A stretch of DNA of 64,000 bases from positions 1 to 64,000 of the forward strand of contig NZ_QQBI01000007.1 of the NCBI RefSeq assembly GCF_004302915.1, in the 5' to 3' direction. The translations under genes and the position numbers were made by a program. The notes under the pieces are model-generated. The model saw only the letters and a list, made by a program, of their open reading frames with translations, searched no databases and had not been told where the DNA came from. The first letter of the stretch is position 1. Every line of letters starts with the position of its first letter. This document shows positions 17,692 through 36,773 of this stretch, piece after piece. Source of the DNA: Komagataeibacter xylinus (GTDB taxonomy: Bacteria; Pseudomonadota; Alphaproteobacteria; Acetobacterales; Acetobacteraceae).

Positions 17692-17925
17692 CTATTTCTG
17701 ATCGTCCGTCGGGAAGTGACTTTCGTCCAGCAGCGCGGCCGGCCGCACGTCCAGTGCCTGCGACGCATGCCACAGCGAGAGCAGCGTCGCGTTCTGGCGC
17801 CCGGTCTCGATCCAGCTGATATAGGCGCGGTCCACGCCCATCCGTTCCGCCAGGGCCTCCTGGCTGAGACCGGCGGCGCGTCGCAGGCGCCTCACGTTCG
17901 CGCCGAAAAGTCCTCGGATATCCAT
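17692..17925 (-). CDS. XRE-family helix-turn-helix regulator
   Basis: A 77-residue single-domain protein with a Cro/C1-type helix-turn-helix: VRRLRRAAGLSQEALAERMG, then VDRAYISWIETGRQNATLLSL. It probably represses its own promoter and the divergent excision-control genes downstream of 18197, as XRE regulators do in related ICEs. A 9-bp inverted repeat with a 13-base spacer (17946-17976) lies 21 bases upstream of the start and is a candidate operator. The same stretch carries an oriT-like nic sequence. Confidence 0.9.
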   Translation of the reverse strand: MDIRGLFGANVRRLRRAAGLSQEALAERMGVDRAYISWIETGRQNATLLSLWHASQALDVRPAALLDESHFPTDDQK

Positions 17926-17976
17926 CCGCAGGATAGGAACGATTTGTGTATTATCGCGCTACGTATTATAATACAC
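17926..17976 (-). other. Candidate oriT: IncP-like nic plus inverted repeat
   Basis: On the minus strand CCTATCCTGC (17928-17937) equals the ten central bases of the IncP (RK2) nic region as known from the literature. Eight bases 5' of it is an inverted repeat, GTGTATTAT-N13-ATAATACAC (17946-17976). RK2 has the same order, with the TraJ-bound repeat 5' of nic at a similar spacing. Alternatively the repeat is only the operator of the XRE gene and the nic match is chance. Confidence 0.42.
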
Positions 17977-17994
17977 GGAGCGTCAAATGCCTTC

Positions 17995-18023
17995 TCACGT
18001 GATGCGCTATGGGCATCACGTGA
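17995..18023. promoter_or_regulatory. Perfect 11-bp inverted repeat
   Basis: TCACGTGATGC (17995-18005) is repeated inverted at 18013-18023 with a seven-base loop. There is no T tract, so it is not a terminator. It lies between the XRE gene and the excision-activator genes and may be an operator or part of an extended oriT. Confidence 0.5.
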
Positions 18024-18196: not shown

Positions 18197-18403
18197 GTGC
18201 CGACAATCCGGCCGTGGGATGCCGCACCCCTTCGTCGCGCCTACGCCGGGCTCGACCCTGCCGGTCTCGCCCAGGAATGGCTGCGACACAATCCGGCCTA
18301 CCGGCGCGATCATGCAGCAACCATGACGACGGGCAAGGTTGACGCCGAGGCATGGCGTGCCTTCGCCCGTCGCTGGGGGTTACGTTTTCCCTGTCGATCC
18401 TGA
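18197..18403 (+). CDS. DUF6499 N-terminal part of FseA-like excision activator
   Basis: A GTG-started, 68-codon frame following GGGGGAGGGGG. Its sequence (LRRAYAGLDPAGLAQEWLRRNP-like, ending WRAFARRWGLRFP) is the N-terminal domain normally joined to DUF2285. It runs out of frame after WGLRFP, but a +1 shift at 18386-18389 continues into VDPDLPAWLAP of the DUF2285 frame, giving a 261-residue product. In ICEMlSymR7A two such frames are fused by programmed +1 frameshifting to make FseA, the activator of the excisionase gene rdfS. The same explanation fits here; a frameshift mutation or sequencing error is the alternative. Confidence 0.75.
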   Translation: MPTIRPWDAAPLRRAYAGLDPAGLAQEWLRHNPAYRRDHAATMTTGKVDAEAWRAFARRWGLRFPCRS

Positions 18404-18983
18404 TCTCCCCGCCTGGCTTGCCCCCGCCTTCTGGGATCCGGACAGCGCGCCGGAGGTTGCCATGCGTGGCGATGGGGGTGACATCCTGTCCCGTCTCACG
18501 CCATACGCGCGGGCACGACATGATGGTCCCGATGGCATCCATCTCGTGCTGGACAGTGCGGCGGGTCCGCTGCGCATCGTCATAGTCGTCGATCGGCAGC
18601 CCGATGCGTCAGGAACCTGGTTCGTCATCGATGACGGGCACCTCCCGACCCGTCTGGCCTGCGTGGCACGCTTCGGCCGCCTGCTTGCCGGACAGGCGCC
18701 CGGTCTTCTGCCCTCCAGCTTGCGCCTGAGTCCCCAGCAGAAACTGCGCCAGATCCGCATGCTCTGCATCGCCGAAGGCCGGCGCACGGGGGTGACAGCG
18801 CGCCGGATCGCAGCCGGCATATACGGCGAGCGTATCCTGCAACTGTCCCGCAATGAATGGCGTGCCAGTTCTTGGCACCGCGCCTTTTACCGCGATCTTG
18901 GCGGTGCCGAATTCTATCTGAACGGCGGCCACATCGCCCTCCTTCAGGGGCTGAAGCAGGGGGGTGACATTTTGGCAGCCTGA
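18339..18983 (+). CDS. DUF2285 C-terminal part of FseA-like excision activator
   Basis: This frame overlaps the previous one by 65 bases in the +1 frame. From the slip site it encodes about 197 residues: VDPDLPAWLAPAFWD, a beta-rich middle, and the C-terminal DUF2285 domain with LRQIRMLCIAEGRRTGVTARRIAAGIYG and LRNEWRASSWHRAFYRDL-like helix-turn-helix elements (last 80 residues). Residues before GGYVFP read as out-of-frame translation of the upstream gene, so an independent start at 18339 is unlikely. DUF2285 proteins activate excision genes in ICEMlSym-type elements, and the next gene here is excisionase-like. Confidence 0.8.
   Translation: MTPRHGVPSPVAGGYVFPVDPDLPAWLAPAFWDPDSAPEVAMRGDGGDILSRLTPYARARHDGPDGIHLVLDSAAGPLRIVIVVDRQPDASGTWFVIDDGHLPTRLACVARFGRLLAGQAPGLLPSSLRLSPQQKLRQIRMLCIAEGRRTGVTARRIAAGIYGERILQLSRNEWRASSWHRAFYRDLGGAEFYLNGGHIALLQGLKQGGDILAA
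18386..18392 (+). promoter_or_regulatory. Candidate +1 ribosomal frameshift site
   Basis: Zero-frame codons are CGT TTT CCC TGT. A Phe tRNA on TTT (18386-18388) can slip forward onto TTC (18387-18389), a better match to its GAA anticodon, after which CCT GTC GAT follows. This restores the conserved RFP-VDPDLP junction. The zero frame ends five codons after TTT (TGA at 18401-18403). Confidence 0.6.
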
Positions 18984-19080
18984 ACTTTGTCATCCCTCCC
19001 CAAGTCTCATTCTCCGGCAGCGTCCTCCCATGAGCCGCGACATTCCGCACGCGGCCCGATCCATCGGGAGGAAAGACCCC

Positions 19081-19380
19081 ATGCGTGTCCAGCCGACACT
19101 GCCACCGCGCTATCTGCGCACCCCGGACGCGGCCAATTTCGTTGGCCTGTCCATCCGCACCCTCGAAAAACACCGGAGTTGCGGCACCGGTCCGCTCTAC
19201 CGCCAGCTTGGTGGCCGGATTGTCTATGCCGTGGAAGACCTCTGCGCCTGGGCCGACCTGAACGTCAGGCTCTCCACCGGAGACGGTGGCGGTATCCCGA
19301 TGCCGTCCGATCCCCGAGCTTACATCATCCGCTTGCAGGCCAGGGCTCGCAAAGCCCAGCAGCGGAGTGCCGGACAATGA
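19081..19380 (+). CDS. Excisionase-like wHTH protein (RdfS/AlpA-like)
   Basis: A 99-residue protein whose first 60 residues form a MerR/AlpA-type winged helix-turn-helix: YLRTPDAANFVGLSIRTLEKHR, then GPLYRQLGGRIVYAVEDLCAWAD. This is the fold of recombination directionality factors such as RdfS, which helps the integrase excise the element. Its position, downstream of the DUF2285 activator and overlapping repA (ATGA), matches the rdfS-traF-rlxS region of ICEMlSymR7A. A generic helix-turn-helix regulator is the alternative. Start chosen at 19081 after GGGAGGAAAG. Confidence 0.75.
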   Translation: MRVQPTLPPRYLRTPDAANFVGLSIRTLEKHRSCGTGPLYRQLGGRIVYAVEDLCAWADLNVRLSTGDGGGIPMPSDPRAYIIRLQARARKAQQRSAGQ

Positions 19381-20450
19381 TGCCGGCCGCCGATAGCTGG
19401 CGTCAGCCCGACCGCCGCTTCGTGGTCACGGGGGCGGCAAGGCCCCGCGACGTCCGCGATCTAATGGGCCGCCCGTTCTTCCCGTTGGGGAAAACGCCGC
19501 GTGTCATCCCCGTCGATTACGAGGCGCGGCATGCCAGTGTGACGGTATCGGCACCGGACGGATCGGGCATGGCCACGATCTGGGATGCGGACGTGCTGCT
19601 GTGGCTGACCGGACAGATCGTCGATGCCCTGAACCACGACCTGTGGGTATCGCGCCATGTGCGCTTCACGCCTTGGCGTCTGTTCCAGGATCTGGGCTGG
19701 GCGACGGGGGCGAACGAGTATCGGCGCCTGCACGGCGCGCTCGGGCGTCTGGCGGCCACGACCGTCGCTACCAACATCCGTAATGGCGCGGACTGGCGGG
19801 AGAAGCCGTTTACCTGGATCAGTGACGTCCGGATTTCCCGTGAGGATGGGGTGGCCCTGACGCTGGCGGACTGGCTGATGGAGGCCGCCTGTGACCGTTC
19901 CCGCGTCCTGAGCGTCGACCCTGCCTATTTCCGTCTTGGCGGGGGATTGGAGCGGTGGCTTTACCGTCTGGCCCGACGCCATGCCGGGCGACAGAAGGAG
20001 GGATGGTGCTTCGATCTGGCGGACCTGCATGCGCGCTCGGGCAGCCTGACCCGGCGTCGTGACTTCACCGCGAAAATCCGTGCCATCGTCATCCGTCAGA
20101 CGGTTCCAGGTTACACGTTTCGCGTCATTTCTGGCGGAAAACTGGGAGTTTTATGCGCCGCTCCAACGAGTCAATCCACCGGGATTGTGGATAACGATGT
20201 GAAACCTGTCGTCGGACCGGCGGCGCATCATATCGTGGGACCGTTGGCGGATTCATCGTCGGACCATTGGCGAAAAACGGCGCAACCCATTGGTTTTGAA
20301 GGCGGAATCGGCCTCTTAACTTATATAACTTATATAATAACTTATTATGTAGGGGATTCCGATCTTTTCGCTCCCCTTCCGGCAGCCCGGTCGGAGCATG
20401 GAAAAAAGGCTCGGGAAGCGGTCGCGGATCGCATGGTCGGTGTCCCATGA
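19377..20450 (+). CDS. RepA-like replication initiator
   Basis: The 357-residue protein belongs to the replication initiator A family: ARHASVTVSAPDGSGMATIWDADVLLWL (about 50-78), FTPWRLFQDLGWATGANEYRRLHGALGRL (about 101-129) and a second winged helix with WCFDLADLHARSGS. It overlaps the stop of the wHTH gene by four bases. Its last 90 codons are unlike the family and contain a DnaA box, three iterons and an AT-rich array, so coding and origin functions overlap. An initiator on an integrating element would allow transient replication; on a plasmid it would be the main initiator. Confidence 0.85.
   Translation: MMPAADSWRQPDRRFVVTGAARPRDVRDLMGRPFFPLGKTPRVIPVDYEARHASVTVSAPDGSGMATIWDADVLLWLTGQIVDALNHDLWVSRHVRFTPWRLFQDLGWATGANEYRRLHGALGRLAATTVATNIRNGADWREKPFTWISDVRISREDGVALTLADWLMEAACDRSRVLSVDPAYFRLGGGLERWLYRLARRHAGRQKEGWCFDLADLHARSGSLTRRRDFTAKIRAIVIRQTVPGYTFRVISGGKLGVLCAAPTSQSTGIVDNDVKPVVGPAAHHIVGPLADSSSDHWRKTAQPIGFEGGIGLLTYITYIITYYVGDSDLFAPLPAARSEHGKKAREAVADRMVGVP
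20186..20350. other. Candidate iteron-type oriV inside the end of repA
   Basis: A perfect DnaA box (TTATCCACA on the minus strand, 20186-20194) is followed by three direct repeats of a 17-base core, TCGTSGGACCRKYGGCG (20209-20225, 20233-20249, 20256-20272), then an AT-rich stretch at 20314-20348 with three copies of TAACTTATW (20317, 20326, 20338). DnaA box, iterons and AT-rich unwinding region in this order is the textbook iteron origin. The AT-rich part stands out sharply from the GC-rich surroundings. Confidence 0.65.
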
Positions 20451-20935
20451 CCGACTGTTCTTTCCGGCCACGGAGCGATGTGCTCACCACGGTCGAACTG
20501 ACCTGGATCGAGAAGCGCATCGAGCACTGGGTCCGGTTCGGTCATCCCATAGAGGATCGCATTCTCGACCGTCGGCGCAGGCTGATGAGCTTCACGCCGG
20601 ACAGCGTGTTCGCTTTCATCCGCTGGGCCGCGAACGATTTCGGCACTGTGGTGTCCTGCATCGACATCGTGCGCGCCGTCGGGGCGCAGGAAGCGTGCCA
20701 GACCGTGCCCTTTGTTCGTCCCGGCGGCGAGAGCCTGCTGCGCCAGAGCGGCTGGCCCAAGGTGCGCCGGGTGCTGGAAGCGATCGATGGCGTGGAGGCG
20801 CTGGGGATTGATCCTGCCGCCGCCTGTCCCGATCACTGGCGCCATCTGCATCATCGGCTCACGGCGGCGCAGGAGCCGCGTCCCTACACGTCAGAGCGCC
20901 ATGAGGCATGGCTGCGCAGGAGGGCCATGTCATGA
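20447..20935 (+). CDS. DUF2840 protein
   Basis: A 162-residue protein of the DUF2840 family, with LTWIEKRIEHWVRFGHPIEDRILDRRRR near the N-terminus, then FAFIRWAANDFGTVVSCIDIVRA and the ending RPYTSERHEAWLRRR. It overlaps the repA stop by four bases and the traF start by four bases, so the block is one operon. DUF2840 genes consistently precede traF in alphaproteobacterial conjugative elements; the role is unknown. Confidence 0.9.
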   Translation: MTDCSFRPRSDVLTTVELTWIEKRIEHWVRFGHPIEDRILDRRRRLMSFTPDSVFAFIRWAANDFGTVVSCIDIVRAVGAQEACQTVPFVRPGGESLLRQSGWPKVRRVLEAIDGVEALGIDPAAACPDHWRHLHHRLTAAQEPRPYTSERHEAWLRRRAMS

Positions 20936-21561
20936 CCCGGCGCGGCTGGTTCTTCGCCACGTATTTCGCCGTGCTCGGGGTGGGCGCTTCGCTGGCGTTT
21001 CATCCCGCGCCGCGCTGGGTCTGGAACGAGACAGCCAGCGTTCCGGTCGGGCTGTATCGCATCCAGCCCACCACCCCGGTCCATGTCGGCGACATTGTCG
21101 CAATCCGCCTGCCGGAGCACGAGGCGACGCTGCTGGCGACGCGCGGCTACCTGCCGTTCGGTGTGCCGCTGCTCAAGCCTGTGGCGGCTCTCGCGGGGCA
21201 GAGTGTCTGCCGGAATGGCCCGCACATCACCATCGACGGGAAAGCCGCCGGCGAGGCGAAATCCGTCGACCATCGAGGCCGCAAGCTGCCCGTCTGGCAG
21301 GGGTGTCAGCATCTCGGGCCAGGACAGGTCTTCGTCATGAACGTCGCCGTGCCGACCAGTCTGGACGGGCGGTATTTCGATGTCCTGCCGATGGACACCG
21401 TCATCGGACGCGCCGTGCCGGTGCATGTTCGCATGGGCGAGGCGGAGCCAGCGCCGCCGCATTTCGATCCCTTCCCAGAACTGGATGATCCCGTGCGGAA
21501 GGGGCCGCTCCTGGGACGGCCGATGATGCCCGCGAAAGAGAGCGAACCGCCCATTCAATGA
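20932..21561 (+). CDS. traF: TraF-type S26 signal peptidase
   Basis: A 209-residue inner-membrane serine protease with one N-terminal membrane segment (residues 6-24), the catalytic Ser36 in ASVPVGLYRI and the general-base Lys82 in PLLKPVAALAGQ. In IncP-like transfer systems TraF processes and cyclises the pilin TrbC. The pilin gene is about 19 kb away at 40336, with cargo between. The start at 20932 overlaps the DUF2840 stop; an upstream in-frame ATG at 20908 is less likely. Confidence 0.9.
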   Translation: MTRRGWFFATYFAVLGVGASLAFHPAPRWVWNETASVPVGLYRIQPTTPVHVGDIVAIRLPEHEATLLATRGYLPFGVPLLKPVAALAGQSVCRNGPHITIDGKAAGEAKSVDHRGRKLPVWQGCQHLGPGQVFVMNVAVPTSLDGRYFDVLPMDTVIGRAVPVHVRMGEAEPAPPHFDPFPELDDPVRKGPLLGRPMMPAKESEPPIQ

Positions 21562-24771: not shown

Positions 24772-25170
24772 CTAATTATCAAACGGAGAAAGTGCTTCAA
24801 TAATTCGGCATTCTGAAATATTACCTCCCCGGCATGATTTTATTATCGTAGAAAGTTCATGACGCAATGCCTTGAGATCCGCAATTTTGTGCTCAATCTC
24901 TGCCATATGGTCACGAGCAATTCTATCAACTGTCTTACAATCCTGGGTTCCCTGATCCGCTAGGGATAATAGAACTCTTACCTGATCTAATGAAAAACCC
25001 AGATCACGGGATCGACGAATAAAAGACAGTCTCGCGAGCGCCGCATCATCATAAACGCGATAATTGCCATCGGTCCGCTGTGGCGGAGCCAGCAGTCCGA
25101 TCCGTTCATAATAGCGGATCGTCTCGACTTTGGTATTCGTTGCCTTTCCCAAGGCGCCAATCGATCGCAT
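24772..25170 (-). CDS. MerR-family metal-responsive regulator (CadR/PbrR type)
   Basis: A 132-residue MerR protein: helix-turn-helix GALGKATNTKVETIRYYERIGLL, a dimerisation helix, and metal ligands Cys78, Cys113 and Cys121, the three-cysteine arrangement of Cd/Pb/Zn sensors such as CadR and PbrR. It should twist the divergent promoter when metal is bound and switch on the CDF exporter, possibly also the RND genes behind it. The ATG at 25170 is chosen because the domain starts there; the frame is open further upstream into the divergent gene. Confidence 0.88.
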   Translation of the reverse strand: MRSIGALGKATNTKVETIRYYERIGLLAPPQRTDGNYRVYDDAALARLSFIRRSRDLGFSLDQVRVLLSLADQGTQDCKTVDRIARDHMAEIEHKIADLKALRHELSTIIKSCRGGNISECRIIEALSPFDN

Positions 25171-25180
25171 TCCCTGCCTC

Positions 25181-25213
25181 TTGACCCTGTAGTTGCTACA
25201 GGGAGCATACATT
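25181..25213 (+). promoter_or_regulatory. MerR-type promoter/operator
   Basis: A TTGACC -35 box (25181-25186) overlaps a palindrome CCCTGTAG-TTG-CTACAGGG (25185-25203). A -10-like CATACA or TACATT follows after a 19- to 21-base spacer, longer than the normal 17, as is usual for MerR-activated promoters. Confidence 0.75.
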
Positions 25214-25243
25214 AAAACAGATGATTCGTCAGGGAGGCGCTGG

Positions 25244-25894
25244 ATGGCAGGAGGATGCTGTGGTGGATGCACAGATACGCCGCTACCAATCAATAAATCA
25301 TGGCGGAGAGCGCTCCTGATCGCGCTTTTTCTCAATGCCAGCATGTTTGCCGTTGAAGCTGGGGCTGGCGTGTCGGTTGGATCTGCATCCTTACAGGCGG
25401 ACGCGATTGATTTCCTTGGCGACAGCGCCAACTACGCAATAAGCCTCAGTGTTGCCGGAATGGCATTGCGATGGCGAGCTGGCGCGGCCTTTCTGAAAGG
25501 CCTGACCCTGTTCGTGGCTGGGATATGGGTAATGGCCAATGCTGGGTGGATGGTAATGAACAGCAACCATCCGCCTCACCCAGACGCAATGGGCGGCATT
25601 GGTCTGCTTGCCCTCGCGGTCAATCTGGCCTGTGCCCTCATATTATGGACACACCGGAAAGGTGATGCCAACCGCCGTTCCGTATGGATCTGCTCTCGTA
25701 ATGATGCGATCGGAAATGTTGCCGTTGTGCTGGCAGCTCTGGGCGTGTTTGGCACTCGTTCTGCGTGGCCGGATATTGCGGTAGCTGCCATCCTTGCGAT
25801 GCTTGGTATTAGTGGAGGTGTGCAGATTATGCGACAATCGAGAGTAGAACTAACAGATAACAAATCAGATATATCACGACATATTAATGTATAA
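25244..25894 (+). CDS. Cation diffusion facilitator-type metal exporter, short form
   Basis: A 216-residue membrane protein with about six membrane segments. It lacks the cytoplasmic C-terminal domain of classical CDF proteins such as CzcD (about 300 residues). The N-terminus GGCCGGC is Cys-rich and may bind metal. Asp residues in QADAIDFLGDSANY and SRNDAIGN match the paired metal-site segments in helices II and V. Such short CDF-like proteins commonly sit next to MerR genes. It probably exports Zn, Cd or a similar ion and is controlled by the MerR operator upstream. Confidence 0.8.
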   Translation: MAGGCCGGCTDTPLPINKSWRRALLIALFLNASMFAVEAGAGVSVGSASLQADAIDFLGDSANYAISLSVAGMALRWRAGAAFLKGLTLFVAGIWVMANAGWMVMNSNHPPHPDAMGGIGLLALAVNLACALILWTHRKGDANRRSVWICSRNDAIGNVAVVLAALGVFGTRSAWPDIAVAAILAMLGISGGVQIMRQSRVELTDNKSDISRHINV

Positions 25895-27329
25895 ATCATA
25901 TAATACTCTAGAATATATTAAGCAGGTAAGGAGACGCACACGCTATAATGCGGCATTCATTCTCCTGATTTTTCCCCTGCTCTGTGGCTGCACAAATAGT
26001 GGTCACTCAAATATTTCGCCGGAATCAGATGTCCAGAAATTTTCCAGCCGTCAATTTACGGATGCCGGATTGCAAGAATTCATTACAAAAGTTCTCGGAC
26101 CAAACGTATCGAGTCAGGAAAACGCATGGGGCATCACTCGCCTGACGCTTGCTACCTTGTATTTTCATCCCGATATCCTTGTAGCTAAAGCTGAACTGGA
26201 AACGGCTCGCGCTGGAATCAAGACAGCCGGTCAACTGCCCAATCCCAGTTTCACGGTGCTGGGTGGCCCATCGGCTCATTACGTCGGCTACGGCGCGTCA
26301 ATACTGATCGAATTTTTCGGCAGGCGTTATCACCGTATCAAAGAAGCCAGATATCGGGCTGCCGTCGCGCAATGGGAAGTCATCAATACTGCATGGAAAC
26401 TACGCAGCGACACGCGGTCTGCTCTTCTCGGCGTCTGGGCTGTATCCGGGCGCCTCAAGCTTGTGGAAGAGACTGCGGCAGCTAAACGCGAACTCTTTAC
26501 CCTGGAACAGGCACGTTTTGATCAGGGGCGAGCATCCGCTTTCGAAATATCGCAGGTACGGACGGAAATGATCCATGCCGAGTTGTCTGTCAGTGATCTG
26601 CGGCGCGAGTATGCCGTCCGTAAGGCAGCTCTGGCTGGAGCAATCGGGGTTCCTGCCGAAGCACTTGATTCCATTGCTCTTGATACAAAAGCATTTGATG
26701 TCTGTCCCGACCTCATAGAATACCGCGATTCACAGGACATGAGATACCAAGCCGTAATGCAACGCGCGGATCTGCGGGAACTTCTTGCGTCTTATGACGC
26801 CGCCCGACAGGCTCTACGGGTCGAAGTTTCTCGACGCTATCCCGACGTCACCATCAGTCCCGCCTATAACTGGGATATTTCAAATCGCTTTGAGGTAAAT
26901 CCCTCTCTGCAAATTCCGATTTTCAATCAGAACGAAGGCCCCATAGCTGAAGCTGTTGGGCAGGAGCATGAGGCGGCGGCTCGTCTCCGGCGTGCAGAGA
27001 ACACGGTGTTTAAGTCCATCTCGCAGGCTACGGCCAATTACCGCGGCACGACATCAATTCTGCTACAGGCGGAAGAACTTGCCAAAACCGTACGGGTAAG
27101 GCTGAACCAGATGCAGCACCGCCTTCAGTCAGGTGCAATCGACCGACCAACGATGGTTATGACTCATATAGAGCAGCTTCAAGCGGAGACCGCTCTTCTT
27201 GAAGCAGAAATTCAGCAACGGCAAGCCATAGGTCAGATCGAAGATGGCATGCAGCAGCCCATTTTTGATCACACCAATGCCGCGCAGGCTTCCGGCCTAC
27301 TTGAAAATAACCAAAGGAACTCACCATGA
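25887..27329 (+). CDS. CzcC-like outer-membrane efflux protein
   Basis: A 480-residue TolC-family lipoprotein. The signal peptide ends in LLCGC, so Cys35 or Cys37 would be lipidated. Two outer-membrane-factor repeats follow, with SFTVLGGPS and VTISPAYNWD segments typical of CzcC/CusC homologues. It overlaps the end of the exporter gene by eight bases and the next gene by four, so all belong to one operon. GC content is lower than in the element core, suggesting a different source. Confidence 0.85.
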   Translation: MYKSYNTLEYIKQVRRRTRYNAAFILLIFPLLCGCTNSGHSNISPESDVQKFSSRQFTDAGLQEFITKVLGPNVSSQENAWGITRLTLATLYFHPDILVAKAELETARAGIKTAGQLPNPSFTVLGGPSAHYVGYGASILIEFFGRRYHRIKEARYRAAVAQWEVINTAWKLRSDTRSALLGVWAVSGRLKLVEETAAAKRELFTLEQARFDQGRASAFEISQVRTEMIHAELSVSDLRREYAVRKAALAGAIGVPAEALDSIALDTKAFDVCPDLIEYRDSQDMRYQAVMQRADLRELLASYDAARQALRVEVSRRYPDVTISPAYNWDISNRFEVNPSLQIPIFNQNEGPIAEAVGQEHEAAARLRRAENTVFKSISQATANYRGTTSILLQAEELAKTVRVRLNQMQHRLQSGAIDRPTMVMTHIEQLQAETALLEAEIQQRQAIGQIEDGMQQPIFDHTNAAQASGLLENNQRNSP

Positions 27330-28360
27330 AAGCGAGGGCCTTCTGGCTGCCTCTTGCAGGTCTTTCGGTCTTCCTAGTTCTAAACGGGACAGACATTGCC
27401 ATTGCAGATGATGATGATCAACCAGTTTCGGTTCTTGGTGCAGAGGCGACCGTGACGGTCTCCCCGGAAGCAGTTACGAAGAGCGGCATTGCTTCTGCAC
27501 GACCCAGCATCGTGCCTTGGAGAAAGCTGGTTCCCGCCTATGGTTACGTTCTGAACGCAACACAACTTATCACTCTTGTTAGTAATTATGCTGACATGAA
27601 AGCGCGGCTGGAGAGCATGCAGGCACAGCAGACGCTTGCCCGTGCGAAACTCGATCGTGACAAAGGACTGTATCGCGATCGGCAGAATATCTCTCAGGAA
27701 CAATTCCAGGAGACAACAGCTAGATTTCAGTCCAATTCAGCTATGGTAAAAGCAGAACAGGTCCGGGTGAATAACGCACTTAATATTATCAGACAGCAAT
27801 TTGGTTCGGTCATATCTGACGCTACCGAAAAAAATACAATTTTCATTACACAGTTACTTCAACAACAAGTGGTCTTGGTCAAGGTGACCCTTCCACCAGA
27901 TACGGATCTACCAACCCCACCAAGTCAGGCGGATGTGACCGATTATGGAAACACGGGTGGACACGGGACAATGCTCCACTATTTGTCTCCTGTAACCATG
28001 ACCGATCCTGCTATTCAGGGGCGTAGCTTTTTCTATTTTGCGTCGGCTGAAAGTCAGCTTGTCGCGGGCATGAATGTTTCCGTTCTCCTGCCTACCGAAG
28101 AGGAACGTCGCGGTATCCGGATACCTGCATCAGCTATTATCTGGCTGCAAGGTAAGTCGTGGATATACCGTGATAACGGACACGGAAAATTTACACGCTT
28201 ACCCCTTACGACCGACGTGCCGGACCGAGAAGGTGGCTACTTGATCCAAGATACTCCAGGACAAATCACACACGAAACGCAAATCGTCATAGAGGGTACG
28301 CAATTACTTCTGTCTGAAGAATTCCGAGCTCAGCTTGAATCAGGAGACGATGACGACTGA
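27326..28360 (+). CDS. CzcB/CusB-like periplasmic adaptor
   Basis: A 344-residue membrane-fusion protein. A signal peptide (residues 1-27) is followed by a run of Asp residues, the hairpin domain (MKARLESMQAQQTLARAKLDRDKGLY, about 91-116), and a C-terminal membrane-proximal domain (IPASAIIWLQGKSWIYRDNG). Another Asp run closes the protein; both may bind metal. It links the RND pump to the outer-membrane channel. The N-terminal barrel is short compared with CusB. Confidence 0.8.
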   Translation: MKARAFWLPLAGLSVFLVLNGTDIAIADDDDQPVSVLGAEATVTVSPEAVTKSGIASARPSIVPWRKLVPAYGYVLNATQLITLVSNYADMKARLESMQAQQTLARAKLDRDKGLYRDRQNISQEQFQETTARFQSNSAMVKAEQVRVNNALNIIRQQFGSVISDATEKNTIFITQLLQQQVVLVKVTLPPDTDLPTPPSQADVTDYGNTGGHGTMLHYLSPVTMTDPAIQGRSFFYFASAESQLVAGMNVSVLLPTEEERRGIRIPASAIIWLQGKSWIYRDNGHGKFTRLPLTTDVPDREGGYLIQDTPGQITHETQIVIEGTQLLLSEEFRAQLESGDDDD

Positions 28361-31300
28361 TGACGGGACGTTCTTTCAGCCTTCAGGCAGCTATTATCGG
28401 GTTTTCGATCCGCTTCCGGGGCGTGGTTATCGCAACCGCATGTCTGTTGTTCTTCTATGGCCTGTATGGCTTGAGACATGCCAGCTATGATGTGTTTCCG
28501 GAATTCATTCCGCCACGGGTCACGATCCAGACCGAAGCCGCTGGTTTTACGCCGGAACAGGTCGAAACATTGGTTAGTCGCCCAATGGAAATTGCCCTGA
28601 CCGGCCTCCCGGGTATTCAGCGCGTGCAATCGACTTCGATTCAGGGACTGTCAGTCGTCAACGTCCTGTTTGCGACATCGACCGATATTTATCGAGCCCG
28701 GCAACTGGTCGGGGAACAAATGAATGTTGTTGCACAGCAATTGCCAGCCGGTGTTCATGCTCCGACTATGACGCCACTGACCTCATCCGCCGGTCTGGTA
28801 CTGGTGATCGGTCTGACGTCGGAACAACAGTCCCTTATGCAGTTGCGCACGCTTGCTGACTGGTCATTAAGGCCGCGTCTGCTGGCGTTGCCTGGTGTGG
28901 CTGGAGTCAGCGTGTTTGGCGGGGAGCGTCGGTCACTCCAGATACAGGTACATCCAGACCAACTCATCTTGCATCATATCGGACTCGATGACGTCCTTGC
29001 GGCTGCCCAGGAAGCGACTGGCATACAGGGGGCCGGCTTTATTGATACCCCGAACCAAAGAGTCGTTCTTCAGTCTGACGGTCAGGCCCTGACGCCAGAA
29101 AGTCTGGCCCGCACTGTGATTGTCCGCTCTGAGAATGGTGCTGTCACACTGGGCAGTATTGCCACTGTAACTGAAGCCCCTATTCCTGCCTTCGGCGCGG
29201 CCAGTATCGAGGGAAAGACAGGCATTGTAGTTAATATATGGGAACAGTACGGTGCCAATACAATGGCCGTGACCCGGGAAATCGAGGCGGCACTTACCGA
29301 TTTCCGCCCGCAATTGCAGGGACAGGGGATTACATTGCATGCTGACCTGTTCCGACCCGCCAATTTCATTACGACCGCATTGGGGAATGCCACACGAGCA
29401 TTGCTTCTGGGCGGTTTTCTGGTGGTTGTCGTAATCTTTCTTTTCCTTTTTGACCTGCGAACCGCTGCAATCTGTTGCGCCACCATACCTTTGGCTATTC
29501 TGATAGCCCTGTCGTTGCTGGAGACACTCGGGGTTACTTTGAATGCCATGACCTTGGGGGGCCTTGCTATTGCCATCGGCGAGGTTGTGGATGACGCCGT
29601 GATCGGGGTCGAAAATGTTACACGCCGATTGCGTGAAAACCGGCTTCTGGTCCAGCCCGCATCTACAGCGCGCGTCGTACTCGATGCGTGCGTTGAAGTC
29701 CGCAGTGCAGTGGTTTACGCGACCTTTGCTGTCATTATCGTTTTCTTGCCTGTCATCGCCCTTCCCGGACTTTCGGGACGACTGTTTGCTCCACTGGCAA
29801 CAGCTTATGTTCTTGCGGTCATGGCTTCTCTTGCCGCTGCTGTAACCGTTGTACCTGCACTCTGCGCATGGCTCTTGGCGACGCCTGGAGAAATCCGGAG
29901 AGAGCCCCCCCTGGCAGGATGGACCGCCAGAGCTTATGAACGTCTTCTGGCCAGATTAATGCGCCATCCCCGATTTGTTATAGGCGGGATGATCCTGACC
30001 ACCTTGATAGGGTTTGCGGCCCTTCCATTCCTTGAAAGCGATTTCATTCCCGATTTCAAGGAAGGCCACCTTATCATTCATATGACGGCAGTTCCGGGGA
30101 CTTCCCTGGAACAGTCTCTGAAATTAGGCAGACAGGTTACAGAAAAACTTCGTCAGCTTCCCGAAATCCGTTCGGTTGCTCAGAGAGTCGGACGCGCCTC
30201 GCTGGATGAGGACACGTATGGACCACATACCAGCGAGTTTGAGGTTGATTTGAATCAGGTGGATGGGAAGGCTTCCCGACAGATTGATGCCCGCGTTCGC
30301 AAAGCGCTTGACGGGTTCGTTGGGGCCAGTTTTTCTGTCAGTAGTTTTTTGACGATGCGCGTAAACGAAACCCTTTCTGGTTCGTCTTCGGCTGTGGCAA
30401 TCAATATTATTGGCGATGATCTGGATGTATTGGATATCCAGGCAAATAATATTGTCCGCATGTTGCATCAGATACATGGCGCAACAGATGTCCGGATAGA
30501 AGCACCTCCTGGTGTTCCGGAACTTGCTATTCGGCTACGCCCTGCTGATCTGGAGCGCTGGGGGCTTCGGTCGGCGGATGTACTCCGATCCATCCATACA
30601 GCCTGGCAGGGTGAAACCGTGGGGCAGATATACGAGCGTTCTGCGGCTTTTAATGTTATGGTTCGTCTTGATGACGCAAGTCGTAATGATGTTGCGTCTG
30701 TCGGTTCCCTGCCACTGCATACTGTTCACGGAAACTACGTACCACTCCGCGTTGTTGCAGACATATATGAGACGAACGGTCGCTATCAGGTGTCACATCT
30801 GGGAGCACAGAGAACACAGACTGTCACCGCAAATGTTACAGGACGATCAGCTCAATCTTTCGTTCAGGACGCACGCACGGCTATAGCAAAAAATATCAAA
30901 CTGCCTCTTGGAACCTACGTTCAGTTTACATCCGCAGCGGAAGCTGAATCACAATCACGCAGGGAACTGTTTATAAATTCCGGGCTCGCTGCCATAGCGG
31001 TCATGATTCTGCTCTCAATAATCACACAAGGATGGCGCAATCTCGCTCTGATACTCGTCAATCTTCCCTTCGCATTTGTGGGCGGCATTCTGACAATCAT
31101 TGTTTCCGGCACAACGCTAACTCTTGGGGCAACAGTCGGCTTCGTTACACTATTCGGGATTACGCTTCGGAATTCGGTGATGATGATTTCGCATTTTGAG
31201 GCTTTGGTCGAGCAGGAAGATCTCACATGGGGAGTAACAACAGCGCTCCGGGGGGCCAGAGACCGCGTCGTCCCCGTACTCATGACATCGCTCGTTACGG

Positions 31301-31494
31301 CGCTTGGACTGGCGCCTCTGGCTGTTGATATGAATGCGCCTGGGCGGGAAATCGAAGGACCTATGGCTGCTGTCATTCTTGGAGGGCTCATGACATCAAT
31401 GATACTTAACCTGTTTGTTTTGCCTATTCTTGCTGTCAAATTTGGTAATTTTTCTGAAAACGAAACGGGAGTTCCGGAAACCTTGTTCAAGTGA
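28360..31494 (+). CDS. Heavy-metal RND efflux pump (CzcA/CusA-like)
   Basis: A 1044-residue inner-membrane proton/metal antiporter with 12 membrane segments and two large periplasmic loops. Helix IV carries LGGLAIAIGEVVDDAVIGVENV, where the acidic residues are those used for proton relay in the heavy-metal (HME) RND family. Its ATG overlaps the adaptor stop (TGATG). The three genes form a complete Czc/Cus-type complex. I cannot tell the metal; the MerR and CDF neighbours favour Zn, Cd or Co rather than Cu or Ag. Confidence 0.88.
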   Translation: MTGRSFSLQAAIIGFSIRFRGVVIATACLLFFYGLYGLRHASYDVFPEFIPPRVTIQTEAAGFTPEQVETLVSRPMEIALTGLPGIQRVQSTSIQGLSVVNVLFATSTDIYRARQLVGEQMNVVAQQLPAGVHAPTMTPLTSSAGLVLVIGLTSEQQSLMQLRTLADWSLRPRLLALPGVAGVSVFGGERRSLQIQVHPDQLILHHIGLDDVLAAAQEATGIQGAGFIDTPNQRVVLQSDGQALTPESLARTVIVRSENGAVTLGSIATVTEAPIPAFGAASIEGKTGIVVNIWEQYGANTMAVTREIEAALTDFRPQLQGQGITLHADLFRPANFITTALGNATRALLLGGFLVVVVIFLFLFDLRTAAICCATIPLAILIALSLLETLGVTLNAMTLGGLAIAIGEVVDDAVIGVENVTRRLRENRLLVQPASTARVVLDACVEVRSAVVYATFAVIIVFLPVIALPGLSGRLFAPLATAYVLAVMASLAAAVTVVPALCAWLLATPGEIRREPPLAGWTARAYERLLARLMRHPRFVIGGMILTTLIGFAALPFLESDFIPDFKEGHLIIHMTAVPGTSLEQSLKLGRQVTEKLRQLPEIRSVAQRVGRASLDEDTYGPHTSEFEVDLNQVDGKASRQIDARVRKALDGFVGASFSVSSFLTMRVNETLSGSSSAVAINIIGDDLDVLDIQANNIVRMLHQIHGATDVRIEAPPGVPELAIRLRPADLERWGLRSADVLRSIHTAWQGETVGQIYERSAAFNVMVRLDDASRNDVASVGSLPLHTVHGNYVPLRVVADIYETNGRYQVSHLGAQRTQTVTANVTGRSAQSFVQDARTAIAKNIKLPLGTYVQFTSAAEAESQSRRELFINSGLAAIAVMILLSIITQGWRNLALILVNLPFAFVGGILTIIVSGTTLTLGATVGFVTLFGITLRNSVMMISHFEALVEQEDLTWGVTTALRGARDRVVPVLMTSLVTALGLAPLAVDMNAPGREIEGPMAAVILGGLMTSMILNLFVLPILAVKFGNFSENETGVPETLFK

Positions 31495-32086
31495 CAGGTA
31501 TGGGCCACTGCTGCACCGAACTACCTGAAGATTATGTCCGATATGCCAATAGAACCCAGAATGAAAACTGCTTCCGTATCACGCTCGGCCACCATTCGGT
31601 CTGGCTCGACCTTCTGGTTGGGTTCGGAATTGCCTTCATGAATCTTGACGCTGTCCAGAAAATCTGGATTGCCGCCCGCACCGAACATCATCGTGTCAAG
31701 GCCGAAAACCGAAAGTATCGTTGCCCGATCCAAATGATTTATGCTCCCTGCCCAGTGGCTTTGGGCGGTCTTGCTACGGCCAACCTAAGCGCCTGTATTC
31801 TTGCTGGTTATTTCCCATAACGATCACCCCACTCTCGGCTCCAAGTGATAGCGGGGGACTGCGCGGACTATGTCCGCTATGCGAAAGGCGAGCCAACCCA
31901 CTTTTATGTCCGACATGTAGGCGACTACCGCCTGTCTGCTCTGTTTCTGCTGAGCCGACAGACAGTTTAGGGAGTAAGCGGAATGTCTGGTCTGAGCGGA
32001 AAAATTGAGGAAGCCGACAGTCGTGATCTCCGTTTCCTCACATAGGATAGCTTGACTTACGACAATATATCCACAAACAAGGATAT
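31495..32086. other. Intergenic region between RND pump and ars operon
   Basis: About 590 bases with no recognised gene. Short frames exist on both strands (a 109-codon frame at 31491-31820 plus strand, a 70-codon frame at 31521-31733 minus strand) but neither has a known motif or clear ribosome binding site. It is likely a junction of two cargo modules with gene remnants. Confidence 0.5.
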
Positions 32087-32088
32087 AT
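32065..32088. promoter_or_regulatory. Candidate ArsR operator at the arsR start
   Basis: The inverted repeat ATATATCC-N8-GGATATAT (32065-32072 and 32081-32088) overlaps the ribosome binding site AAGGA and the first two bases of the arsR start codon. ArsR bound here would block its own operon. Confidence 0.6.
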
Positions 32089-32440
32089 GGATACAGAATC
32101 CGCCCTCGCTGCCCTGAGCGCCCTGTCGCAGTCCACGCGACTGGAGATCTTCCGCCTGCTGGTGCGCCACGAACCGGATGGACTACCCGCCGGAGACGTC
32201 GCGCGGCATCTCGATGTCCCGCAAAACACGATCTCGGCCCATCTCGCCACCCTGACCCGCGCCGGGCTGCTGACCTCGCAACGCCATAGCCGGCTGATCG
32301 TCTATCGCGCCTGTCTTCCGAGCCTGCGGGACCTGATGCTTTTCCTCGTCAGGGACTGCTGTGCTGGCAGCCCCGAACTCTGCGCGCCCCTGATCGCGAC
32401 CCTGTCCTCCTGCTGTCCATCCCCGGAATCCTGCTCATGA
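32087..32440 (+). CDS. arsR: ArsR-family arsenite-responsive repressor
   Basis: A 117-residue winged-helix repressor with helix-turn-helix LPAGDVARHLDVPQNTISAHLATLTRAGLL (about 33-62). Arsenite ligands are probably Cys91, Cys92 and Cys99, a C-terminal cluster like that of the Acidithiobacillus ArsR rather than the helix-4 type of E. coli. Another Cys pair lies at 109-110. First gene of the ars operon; it overlaps arsC by four bases and has an inverted repeat over its start. Confidence 0.9.
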   Translation: MDTESALAALSALSQSTRLEIFRLLVRHEPDGLPAGDVARHLDVPQNTISAHLATLTRAGLLTSQRHSRLIVYRACLPSLRDLMLFLVRDCCAGSPELCAPLIATLSSCCPSPESCS

Positions 32441-32858
32441 CCATCACGATCTATCACAACCCAGCCTGCGGCACGTCGCGCAACGTGCTGGCACTGATCC
32501 GCAACAGCGGCGAGGAACCTCGCATTATTGAGTATCTGAAAACGCATCCCAGTCGTGAGGAACTGGTCAGTCTGATTGCCCGTATGGGCGTTCCGGTGCG
32601 CTCGGTCCTGCGGGAAAAGGGCACGCCCTTTCACGAACTCGGCCTCGACAATCCGACCCTGACGGACGATACGCTGATCGACGCCATGATCGCACACCCG
32701 ATCCTGATGAACCGGCCGATCGTCGTCACCCCCCTCGGTGTTGCGCTCTGCCGTCCGTCCGAGGCGGCTCTGGAAATCCTGCCCAACCCGCAGCGGGGCG
32801 CTTTCGTCAAAGAGGACGGCGAGAAGATCGTCGATGAATCCGGAAAGCGGATCTCCTG

Positions 32859-32859
<1 letters not shown>
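32437..32859 (+). CDS. arsC: Glutaredoxin-dependent arsenate reductase
   Basis: A 140-residue cytoplasmic enzyme of the E. coli plasmid ArsC type. The catalytic Cys11 is in [11 protein letters not shown], and RPIVVTPLG (about 93-101) carries the conserved Arg that stabilises the thiolate-arsenic adduct. It reduces arsenate to arsenite with glutathione and glutaredoxin. Its stop overlaps the arsB start, so arsenite can be exported at once by the next gene product. Confidence 0.94.
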
Positions 32860-34153
<1,294 letters not shown>

Positions 34154-34154
<1 letters not shown>

Positions 34155-34876
34155 TGCATGAATGGACCGATATCACAATGACCGAACCTGACTTGCCGGC
34201 CCTTCACCCCGAATATCTTGAACAGGTCGATCTCGCGCGGCTGGAACCGCAACCGCGTGTGGATCATCCGCCGCGTATCCTTCTGCTCTACGGCTCTTTA
34301 CGCCCCCGATCTTTCAGCCGGTTGCTGGTGCTTGAGGCGGAACGCATCCTGAAGGTGCTGGGGGCCGAGACACGGGTGTTCGACCCGACCGGCCTGCTGG
34401 TAGCGGATTCCGTGCCCGCAACCCACCCGAAAGTGCAGGAACTGCGGGAACTCTCGATCTGGTCTGAAGGCCAGGTCTGGTGCAGCCCCGAACGGCACGG
34501 CAACATCACTGCCGTGTTCAAGAACCAGATCGACTGGTTGCCCCTGACCGAAGGCTCGATCCGCCCGACGCAGGGCCGCACGCTGGCGGTCATGCAGGTT
34601 TCAGGCGGATCGCAGAGCTTCAATTCCGTCAATGCGCTGCGGGTTCTGGGCCGGTGGATGCGGATGTTCACCATCCCCAACCAGTCCAGCGTGCCAGTGG
34701 CCTATACGCAGTTCGGTGACGATGACCGCATGAAGCCGTCCCCCCTCTATGACCGGATGGTAGATGTCATGGAGGAACTGATGAAGTTCACATGGCTTTT
34801 ACGCGACCGGGCCGACTACCTCGTGGACCGCTATAGCGAACGGAAGACGGAATTCCGTCTCCCGGAAAGCCTGTGA
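34154..34876 (+). CDS. arsH: ArsH NADPH-dependent FMN reductase
   Basis: A 240-residue flavodoxin-fold protein with the FMN phosphate-binding loop [11 protein letters not shown] (about 50-60) and the ArsH signature [20 protein letters not shown]. ArsH proteins oxidise trivalent organoarsenicals to less toxic pentavalent forms. The ATG at 34154 overlaps the arsB stop (TAATG); [10 protein letters not shown] at 34178 is an alternative start. Confidence 0.93.
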
Positions 34877-35964
34877 GCCGGGCAATGGCGGAACAGTTCG
34901 ATGTTGTGATCGTGGGCGGTGGTCAGGCGGCACTCGCCGCATCGTATTTTCTACGACGGACCGGGCTGCGTTACGTCATTCTCGATAACGGGACGCAGGC
35001 GGGTGGTGCGTGGGTGCATGGCTGGGACTCCCTGCATCTGTTCTCGCCCGCGTCCTACAGTTCGCTCCCCGGCTGGCCGATGCCCGACACGCCCGATGGC
35101 AGCTACCCCACCCGCGACGAGGTACTTGACTATCTGCACCGCTACGAGGCGCGCTATGCGCCGCCGATCCGCCGTCCTGTGACGGTCGGACGTGTGGAAC
35201 GCGCTGACCAGAAATTCCTGAATGTCCGAACGAACGCGGGTGATTTCCTCAGCCGCGCTGTCATCGGGGCGACCGGCACATGGTCTGCACCCTTTGTTCC
35301 CGATTATCCGGGCCAAAGGTTATTTTCTGGGGCGCAAATCCATTCCTCCCATTATTGTAAAGCGGCACCTTTTACCGGCCAGCGTGTGCTCGTGGTGGGT
35401 GGGGGCAACTCCGGTGCGCAGATTATGGCGGAGCTGTCCCTTGTCGCCCAGGCAACATGGGTCACGCTGCATGACCCCGTCTTCCTGCCCGATGACGTGG
35501 ACGGACGGGTCCTGTTCGAGCGGGCGACCGCTCGGGTTCTCGGCGGCCCGTCGGCCATGCCCACCGGCGGCTTTGGCGATATCGTTATGGTACCGCCTGT
35601 GCGCGCCGCCAGGGAGCGAGGCGTGCTTCACGCGCTGCGTCCGTTCGTACGTATGACGGCAAGGGGCGTCGTCTGGCCCGATGGGCGGGAAGAAGCCATC
35701 GACGCGATCATCTGGTGTACCGGCTTCCGTCCTGCACTCTCTGCATTTGCACCACTCGATGTGATCGAGCCGGACGGGTTGATCCGCGTTAACGGGCAGC
35801 AGGCCGTCAGGGAGCCACGTCTCTGGCTGCTGGGTTATGGCTCCTGGTGCGGCCCCGCATGCGCCACCCTGCTGGGGGCGGGCCGTGTCGCGCGATCCAT
35901 GGTCCGGCAACTGGCGGCCTGGCTTGCGTCACCGGCACAGGGTGTCCGCTTACCAAAACCTTGA
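34873..35964 (+). CDS. ArsO-like flavin monooxygenase
   Basis: A 363-residue FAD/NADPH oxidoreductase. The FAD motif GGGQAA is near residues 15-20 and the NADPH motif [11 protein letters not shown] near 175-185. It resembles the ArsO family found at the end of ars operons next to arsH. Its reaction with arsenic compounds is not firmly known. The frame opens with GTG at 34873 overlapping the arsH stop; ATG at 34885 is an alternative start. It is the last gene of the operon. Confidence 0.82.
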
Positions 35965-36014
35965 GCGACTCTCTTTACGACCGACATGAGGCGACAGCGG
36001 AAGTTCCGCGTCCC

Positions 36015-36326
36015 TCATGCCCTGCTGACCAATTCGTCCAGCGCCCTGATGATCGCCTCCTGATCGGATTCGGTCAGGACGCCGACGGCGGCTCCAAGCC
36101 GCGCGGCGGGGACGGTCGCCAGATCGAACGGGTTTGCGAAGACGTCCTCCCCGTCGACAAGCAGATGCGGCGTCAGCGGATGGTCCGGCGGGGCACTGCC
36201 GGAGCATCTGACGAGCGGCATGACGACACGGCCCACGCTGCGGTCCAGGCGATTGCTCTGGATCTGGACGAGGAACGGGATGTCCCGGTTCCGACCGGGG
36301 TTCCGGTAAATCGCGAATTGCGGCAT
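36015..36326 (-). CDS. ccdB: CcdB-family toxin
   Basis: A 103-residue toxin with the CcdB pattern MPQFAIYRNPGRNRDIPFLVQIQSN and VGRVVMPLV. CcdB poisons DNA gyrase, so cells that lose the element die once the labile antitoxin is gone. It follows its antitoxin by four bases on the opposite strand to the neighbours. Placed between metal cargo and the transfer operon, it should stabilise the element. Confidence 0.9.
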   Translation of the reverse strand: MPQFAIYRNPGRNRDIPFLVQIQSNRLDRSVGRVVMPLVRCSGSAPPDHPLTPHLLVDGEDVFANPFDLATVPAARLGAAVGVLTESDQEAIIRALDELVSRA

Positions 36327-36330
36327 CGGA

Positions 36331-36600
36331 TCAGAGCGTCGAGAATTCGTCGCTCAGGAAGCCGTGCCGCGCGTGCAGATCGTTCACGGCGTCGATCACG
36401 CCATCGAGCTTGCGTTGTTCGTTCTCGCACTGTTGCCGCGCGGATTGCAGGTAGTCGCCCAGCAGGGTCTCGACCGTCGCCGAGAGATTGGGCGTCACTT
36501 CCCGGACCTGCGCCAGCAGATCGGTGTTGAGCGACAGATTGACCGGGCGGCGGGGCGCGCTCCGATCATAGGAAACGCCGAGGCTGGTGCGGCTGGGCAT
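36331..36600 (-). CDS. ccdA: CcdA-family antitoxin
   Basis: An 89-residue protein with a ribbon-helix-helix N-terminus (PVNLSLNTDLLAQVREVTPNLSATVETLL) for DNA binding and a C-terminal toxin-neutralising tail ending HGFLSDEFSTL, typical of CcdA. It represses its own operon together with CcdB. The start at MPSRTSLGVS is preferred; an ATG 21 bases upstream is in frame. Confidence 0.88.
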   Translation of the reverse strand: MPSRTSLGVSYDRSAPRRPVNLSLNTDLLAQVREVTPNLSATVETLLGDYLQSARQQCENEQRKLDGVIDAVNDLHARHGFLSDEFSTL

Positions 36601-36773
36601 GATCCGACTCCTTATGCGCATATCGTGCGCATGAGATGAGGATGCCGACGCCAGACCGCAACGCGCAAGTATTTTTTCGCTCCTGTCCGCTCTGGTACGA
36701 TGGGTGCCGGATCATGCTTGCACGTTGGAAAACCCCGGTTCTTCGCTGTCTCCCATGACAAGGGGAGGGATCG

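Follow-up and report, generated by a model that had tools for sequence, protein, structure and literature searches.

In the window, the 64,000-nucleotide stretch analysed here (bases 1-64000 of a 142,089-base contig; genome 3.63 Mb), the interval 18197-18983 very probably encodes an FseA-type excision activator of a conjugative element, whose synthesis depends on Phe-tRNA slipping +1, from UUU to UUC. The initial annotation had proposed a +1-frameshifted FseA-like activator, and this proposal is supported by the domains, the relation between the frames, the conserved slip site, the RdfS homologue and the FseA-box-like repeat, all of which were observed directly. In the proposed mechanism, most ribosomes would read DUF6499 and stop at the TGA at 18401-18403, and a minority would slip +1, the Phe-tRNA on UUU re-pairing with UUC, to make a 261-aa DUF6499-DUF2285 protein. 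This trans-frame protein would bind the repeat at 18965-18992 and switch on rdfS and the genes behind it, and rdfS activation would then allow the element to excise and transfer; the XRE protein encoded on the other strand would probably control fseA transcription via the repeat at 17939-17983. Slippage at a low rate, binding to DNA and excision are expected by analogy with ICEMlSymR7A, and the same comparison suggests that the shift may act as a throttle in this organism.

The FseA of ICEMlSymR7A (Msi172-Msi171, Mesorhizobium japonicum) has been described as a +1-frameshifted activator (PMC10359603), and FseA frameshifting has been reviewed (PMC5009743). According to the 2023 paper, in which 4709 FseA homologues were curated and about 61% needed the shift, FseA-like proteins with a +1 site occur throughout the alpha-, beta- and gamma-proteobacteria, WGL is encoded by UGGGGG at the shift site, and the FseA box consists of two inverted hexamers 16 bp apart, beside the rdfS promoter (PMC10359603). 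The window gene resembles the ICEMlSymR7A gene in having DUF6499 followed by DUF2285, a +1 shift next to WGL (UGGGGG) and predicted regulation of rdfS by way of two hexamers in inverted orientation, spaced 16 bp. It differs in that its host is an acetic acid bacterium and in that fseA lies directly before rdfS, with the repeat overlapping the fseA stop. The other homologues with a +1 site have the same two domains and site, and the window locus stands among them with no difference of principle (PMC10359603). The novelty implied by the initial annotation therefore fails, because FseA-like genes with a +1 site had already been reported across the proteobacteria. The window fseA belongs to an already described kind, and the mechanism stands as well supported. 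We found no literature on programmed ribosomal frameshifting in acetic acid bacteria.

Table 1. Features of the fseA locus and its surroundings (positions in the window)
Feature	Position	Strand	Evidence or remarks
Divergent XRE-family HTH regulator facing fseA	17692..17925	-	HTH_31/HTH_3; same place in 21 named loci
Near-invariant inverted repeat between XRE gene and fseA, candidate XRE operator	17939..17983	.	22/22 aligned loci including the window
fseA frame 0, DUF6499 (PF20109) N-terminal part	18197..18403	+	PF20109 E 8.6e-19; GTG start; 68 aa
+1 slip motif TGGGGG-TTACGT-TTT-CCC	18374..18391	+	slip codon TTT 18386-18388, re-pairing TTC 18387-18389
fseA +1 frame, C-terminal part with DUF2285 (PF10074)	18387..18983	+	PF10074 E 4.5e-14
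FseA-box-like inverted repeat TGACAT-16 nt-TTGTCA	18965..18992	+	overlaps fseA stop codon 18981-18983
rdfS homologue, winged HTH recombination directionality factor	19081..19380	+	phmmer to PDB 8dgl RdfS, E 1.5e-7
Replication-initiator-A-like gene (RPA)	19377..20450	+	PF10134 E 6.2e-63; overlaps rdfS stop (ATGA)
DUF2840 gene, same gene run	20447..20935	+	
TraF-like S26 peptidase gene	20908..21561	+	PF10502

The features of the locus are listed in Table 1. A DUF6499 frame is followed, one base on, by a DUF2285 frame, as the initial annotation had it. Frame 0 reads CGC TGG GGG TTA CGT TTT CCC TGT CGA TCC TGA across the junction, its stop being the fifth codon past the slip codon, and taking TTTC as a single step gives one continuous protein containing ...RRWGLRFPVDPDLPAWLAP.... 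Among the features that define the FseA family, the DUF6499 part carries AQEWLRHN, an AWEFLRRN-like motif, the C-terminal part is a DUF2285 domain, and the linked rdfS homologue has an upstream inverted repeat of two hexamers, their 16-nt spacing lying within the 15-16 bp typical of the family; as in frameshifted members, the domains are +1-related at WGLxF, where a pyrimidine comes after UUU. Searches of NCBIfam at E 0.01 returned nothing for P0001, either fseA frame, the rdfS homologue or the lone DUF2285-like protein considered below, and ordinary annotation splits a gene of this kind in two. The slip in ICEMlSymR7A FseA is reportedly also from UUU to UUC. In prfB (release factor 2), a G-rich, Shine-Dalgarno-like stretch precedes the site of a +1 shift. 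The window junction is like prfB in both respects but differs in that its slip site has no stop codon, frame 0 ending only at the fifth codon after TTT.

The break recurs in close relatives. With the C-terminal part as query, a search that would have picked up single-frame copies too, the genome collection yielded 21 loci (82-95% identity) in 20 genomes from six genera (Komagataeibacter, Acetobacter, Gluconobacter, Gluconacetobacter, Ameyamaea and Acidomonas). The +1 break is identical in all 21 (TGG GGG, TTG or GTG, CGT TTT CCC), and a GTG start behind a G-rich run is common to them and the window. The initial annotation had singled out the shift position and TTTCCC, and both are conserved, with the break at CGT TTT CCC in 21/21 loci; the run of four T that it placed at 18385-18388 is present in the window and in every one of these loci, and uninterrupted frames were looked for and found in 0/21. 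Positions 18383-18394 show no variation in the close set, and CGTTTTCCCTGT is invariant. Before TTT, variable sites fall mostly on third positions of frame 0 (39/63, vs 20/63 and 15/63), and after TTT they fall mostly on third positions of the +1 frame (150/198, vs 72/198 and 54/198), these column counts leaving out L070, a MAG locus whose C-terminal frame is shortened. Coding-type constraint acts on both fseA frames. In the window's genome and 39 relatives, 41 of 42 DUF6499 hits were called +1, the remaining one (L110) having been removed because it shared 400 identical nt with a locus called +1. As an independent comparison judged from sequence, this pattern confirms that selection apparently keeps the +1 shift of FseA-type activators in acetic acid bacteria. 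Among 72,556 plasmid records, 11 match the C-terminal frame, and in nine the match spans at least 80% of the frame. Matches in two Komagataeibacter plasmids are confined to residues 60-122 (NZ_CP117858.1) and 60-116 (CP004365.1), or 27-29% of the DUF2285 frame, at about 79% identity, and these plasmids may carry truncated or recombined copies because the match is limited to part of the frame.

Of 40 genomes comprising the window's own and relatives, 19 contained DUF6499; the class sample gave 25 of 385 and the phylum sample 43 of 398, each count including the window's genome. The survey comprised 149 loci, nine of which received no call (L035, L055, L058, L100, L104, L106, L124, L146 and L147; L035 had been fetched solely for its DUF2285). 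Removal of copies identical over 400 nt left 132 distinct classified loci, 104 two-frame and 28 one-frame. At the junction, TTT with C or T as the next base is found in 101/104 two-frame loci and in 46 of 48 clusters at 60% identity, against 1/20 single-frame loci and one of 12 clusters with a placed junction; the single-frame figures cover the 20 of 28 loci whose junction could be placed, and these 20 junctions were entered by hand for the statistical tests. The difference between two-frame and single-frame clusters (Fisher p 2.6e-9) and that in GGG (31/48 two-frame vs 3/12 one-frame clusters, p 0.02) are both overstated by these p values, because relatedness between clusters remains. Elsewhere in two-frame genes, TTT accounts for 27% of Phe codons (binomial p 6e-24). 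The near-total presence of TTT-pyrimidine in two-frame genes, compared with single-frame genes, amounts to a clean comparative test of the slip site.

Codon choice around the slip codon is also biased. Among cluster representatives, the Gly codon near the junction is GGG in 30/44 (background 17%), the Leu codon is TTG or TTA in 23/38 (background 10%) and the Arg codon before TTT is CGA in 19/24 (background 9%); one-frame loci have CGN at the like place in 11/20, and in none of those 11 is it CGA. TGT replaces TTT at the slip position in two two-frame lineages (L042; L118 and L119), which means that not every member can rely on UUU-UUC re-pairing. After a +1 step, re-pairing would fail for a tRNA that reads TGT, and the shift in these three loci, if any, would need another explanation. 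In the accessible parts of the FseA literature, we found no mention of the CGA/TTG bias or of TGT variants, and we do not claim that these are new. Pseudoknot-free folding of three stretches revealed no unusual RNA structure downstream (z 0.5 and 0.9), and a downstream stem as shift stimulator was rejected on these grounds. The frame-0 stop lies 3 to 237 codons from TTT across 47 cluster representatives. In L048, L098, L099 and L139, where DUF2285 is in the +1 frame, frame 0 has no stop for 162 to 237 codons counted from the slip codon, and a long alternative frame-0 protein is therefore possible. A second break, within the DUF2285 part, accompanies the usual +1 junction in L087, which was counted as two-frame in the junction tally and omitted from the start-codon tally.

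These comparisons also bear on whether the two frames are instead separate proteins with their own starts, as has been claimed for rihF1a and rihF1b of Azorhizobium (PMC9601964). Taken alone, the window sequence would make this possible, since its +1 frame has a GTG and a TTG ahead of the junction, 10 and 16 codons from it. However, in 18 of 47 cluster representatives the +1 frame lacks any start codon between the last stop and the junction, L094 and L050 have a +1-frame stop within two codons of it, variation upstream of the junction tracks frame 0, and the conservation of TTT-pyrimidine would be left unexplained. We therefore consider separate translation very improbable.

The genes behind fseA identify the likely target of the frameshifted activator. 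The excisionase-like gene that the initial annotation had seen there matches RdfS (Table 1); its HTH_17 match falls below Pfam's cut-off. We placed its start at 19081 and not at the in-frame ATG at 19030 because 19/21 relatives lack one base between the two (L070 is not comparable there). In 87/132 distinct loci, fseA has an RdfS-like gene less than or equal to 400 nt behind it and on its own strand, a tally based on best matches only and, for many loci, on 1.5 kb flanks. The hexamers of the window repeat (TGACAT 18965-18970, TTGTCA 18987-18992) belong to a GTGACA-N17-TTGTCA arrangement found in 21/21 named loci, and the repeat lies 89-94 nt upstream of the rdfS start, compared with 62-67 in the published logo (PMC10359603). 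Across distant loci, the statistical evidence for a repeat of this kind is mixed. When the entire fseA-rdfS interval was tested for inverted repeats, a spacing of 15-16 nt did not stand out. When the test was limited to a zone picked after seeing the data, it was positive, in that 26/42 cluster representatives reached at least 8/11 matches (mean 7.79 vs 6.33, sd 0.13, 300 plain shuffles), with neighbouring spacings raised too.

After rdfS, the genes run in the order RPA-type initiator, DUF2840, TraF-like S26 peptidase (presumably TraF, by position and family), DUF736, transglycosylase, DUF3363 relaxase and Trb-type transfer system. These genes are reminiscent of the rdfS, traF, msi107, rlxS set that FseA switches on in ICEMlSymR7A (PMC11963761). 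The trans-frame protein has a weak PDB match, over its DUF2285 part, to RovC of Yersinia (6xz5, E 0.018), an activator of a type VI secretion system, unlike FseA, and a distant relative of FseA (PMC10359603). This match would suit a frameshifted DUF6499-DUF2285 regulator of other genes, as RovC is for type VI secretion. Given the RdfS homologue and FseA-box-like repeat directly behind fseA, and the location of the locus within a conjugative element with a relaxase and Trb-type genes, we judge such a role very improbable, and retain excision as the likely target. Cargo occupies 24772-36621, between the relaxase and the transfer genes; by eye, it includes a MerR-like regulator and an RND-type metal efflux set of lower GC (0.51-0.54) and, further on, an arsenic operon with ArsB and a CcdA antitoxin.

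The frame could also be restored by RNA polymerase slipping on the T run, and not by the ribosome. The window does have four T in a row, but many homologues have only three (e.g. CGA TTT CGC), and three T are too short for known transcriptional slippage; the conserved item is an in-frame codon, not a run. Polymerase slippage is thus hardly credible. A sequencing error or gene decay would look alike in a single genome, but the same +1 break across the 21 loci, 20 genomes and six genera, the codon-phase switch at the junction, with coding-type constraint on both frames, and the retention of the repeat and rdfS behind the break rule both out for practical purposes. Ribosomal +1 slippage is the explanation that we retain.

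Upstream of fseA, the window departs from ICEMlSymR7A: no QseM-like neighbour was found beside fseA and no LuxR-type gene on the contig, and an XRE gene and a near-invariant candidate operator occupy this region instead. The XRE protein matches NCBIfam models only below their cut-offs. A perfect palindrome lies at 17995-18023 (TCACGTGATGC-7-GCATCACGTGA); it was rejected as a regulator site, its right arm being largely kept in relatives and its left arm often not. No TraR-type quorum-sensing activator is linked to fseA, the sole PF03472 (autoinducer-binding) match of the genome lying on contig C30 and the window on C79. In many other two-frame loci, a lone QseM-like DUF2285 match ends about 120-180 nt before the DUF6499 match. 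Such a match was present upstream in 22/48 two-frame clusters vs 1/19 one-frame clusters, in a survey covering 1.5 kb of flank for most loci, and the one-frame case (L143) resembles a second full copy. In nine of the 22 two-frame clusters there is also an XRE match farther upstream, that of L094 not being significant. The window's cluster (23 loci) showed no lone QseM-like DUF2285 match in the flanks upstream of fseA.

We infer that the window's arrangement is the same switch with the antiactivator removed, possibly an informative variant of the control circuit. A fuller proposal, which we put forward tentatively and hold to be somewhat doubtful, is that the acetic-acid-bacterium branch dropped the antiactivator layer and placed an XRE switch directly on fseA, leaving the +1 shift as the sole post-transcriptional brake; the shift signal would be a codon composite (UGGGGG, UUG/UUA, CGA, UUU-pyrimidine) selected at the nucleotide level, and the two UGU lineages may shift without re-pairing. 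A locus with no neighbouring QseM-like gene offers a simpler system for measuring the shift's own contribution to transfer control. Genome G000 has two more two-frame fseA genes, on contigs C33 and C54, and on its contig C32, another contig than the window's, a lone, weakly DUF2285-like gene (L035, 1462-2148) stands beside a divergent XRE-like gene, like a QseM/QseC pair.
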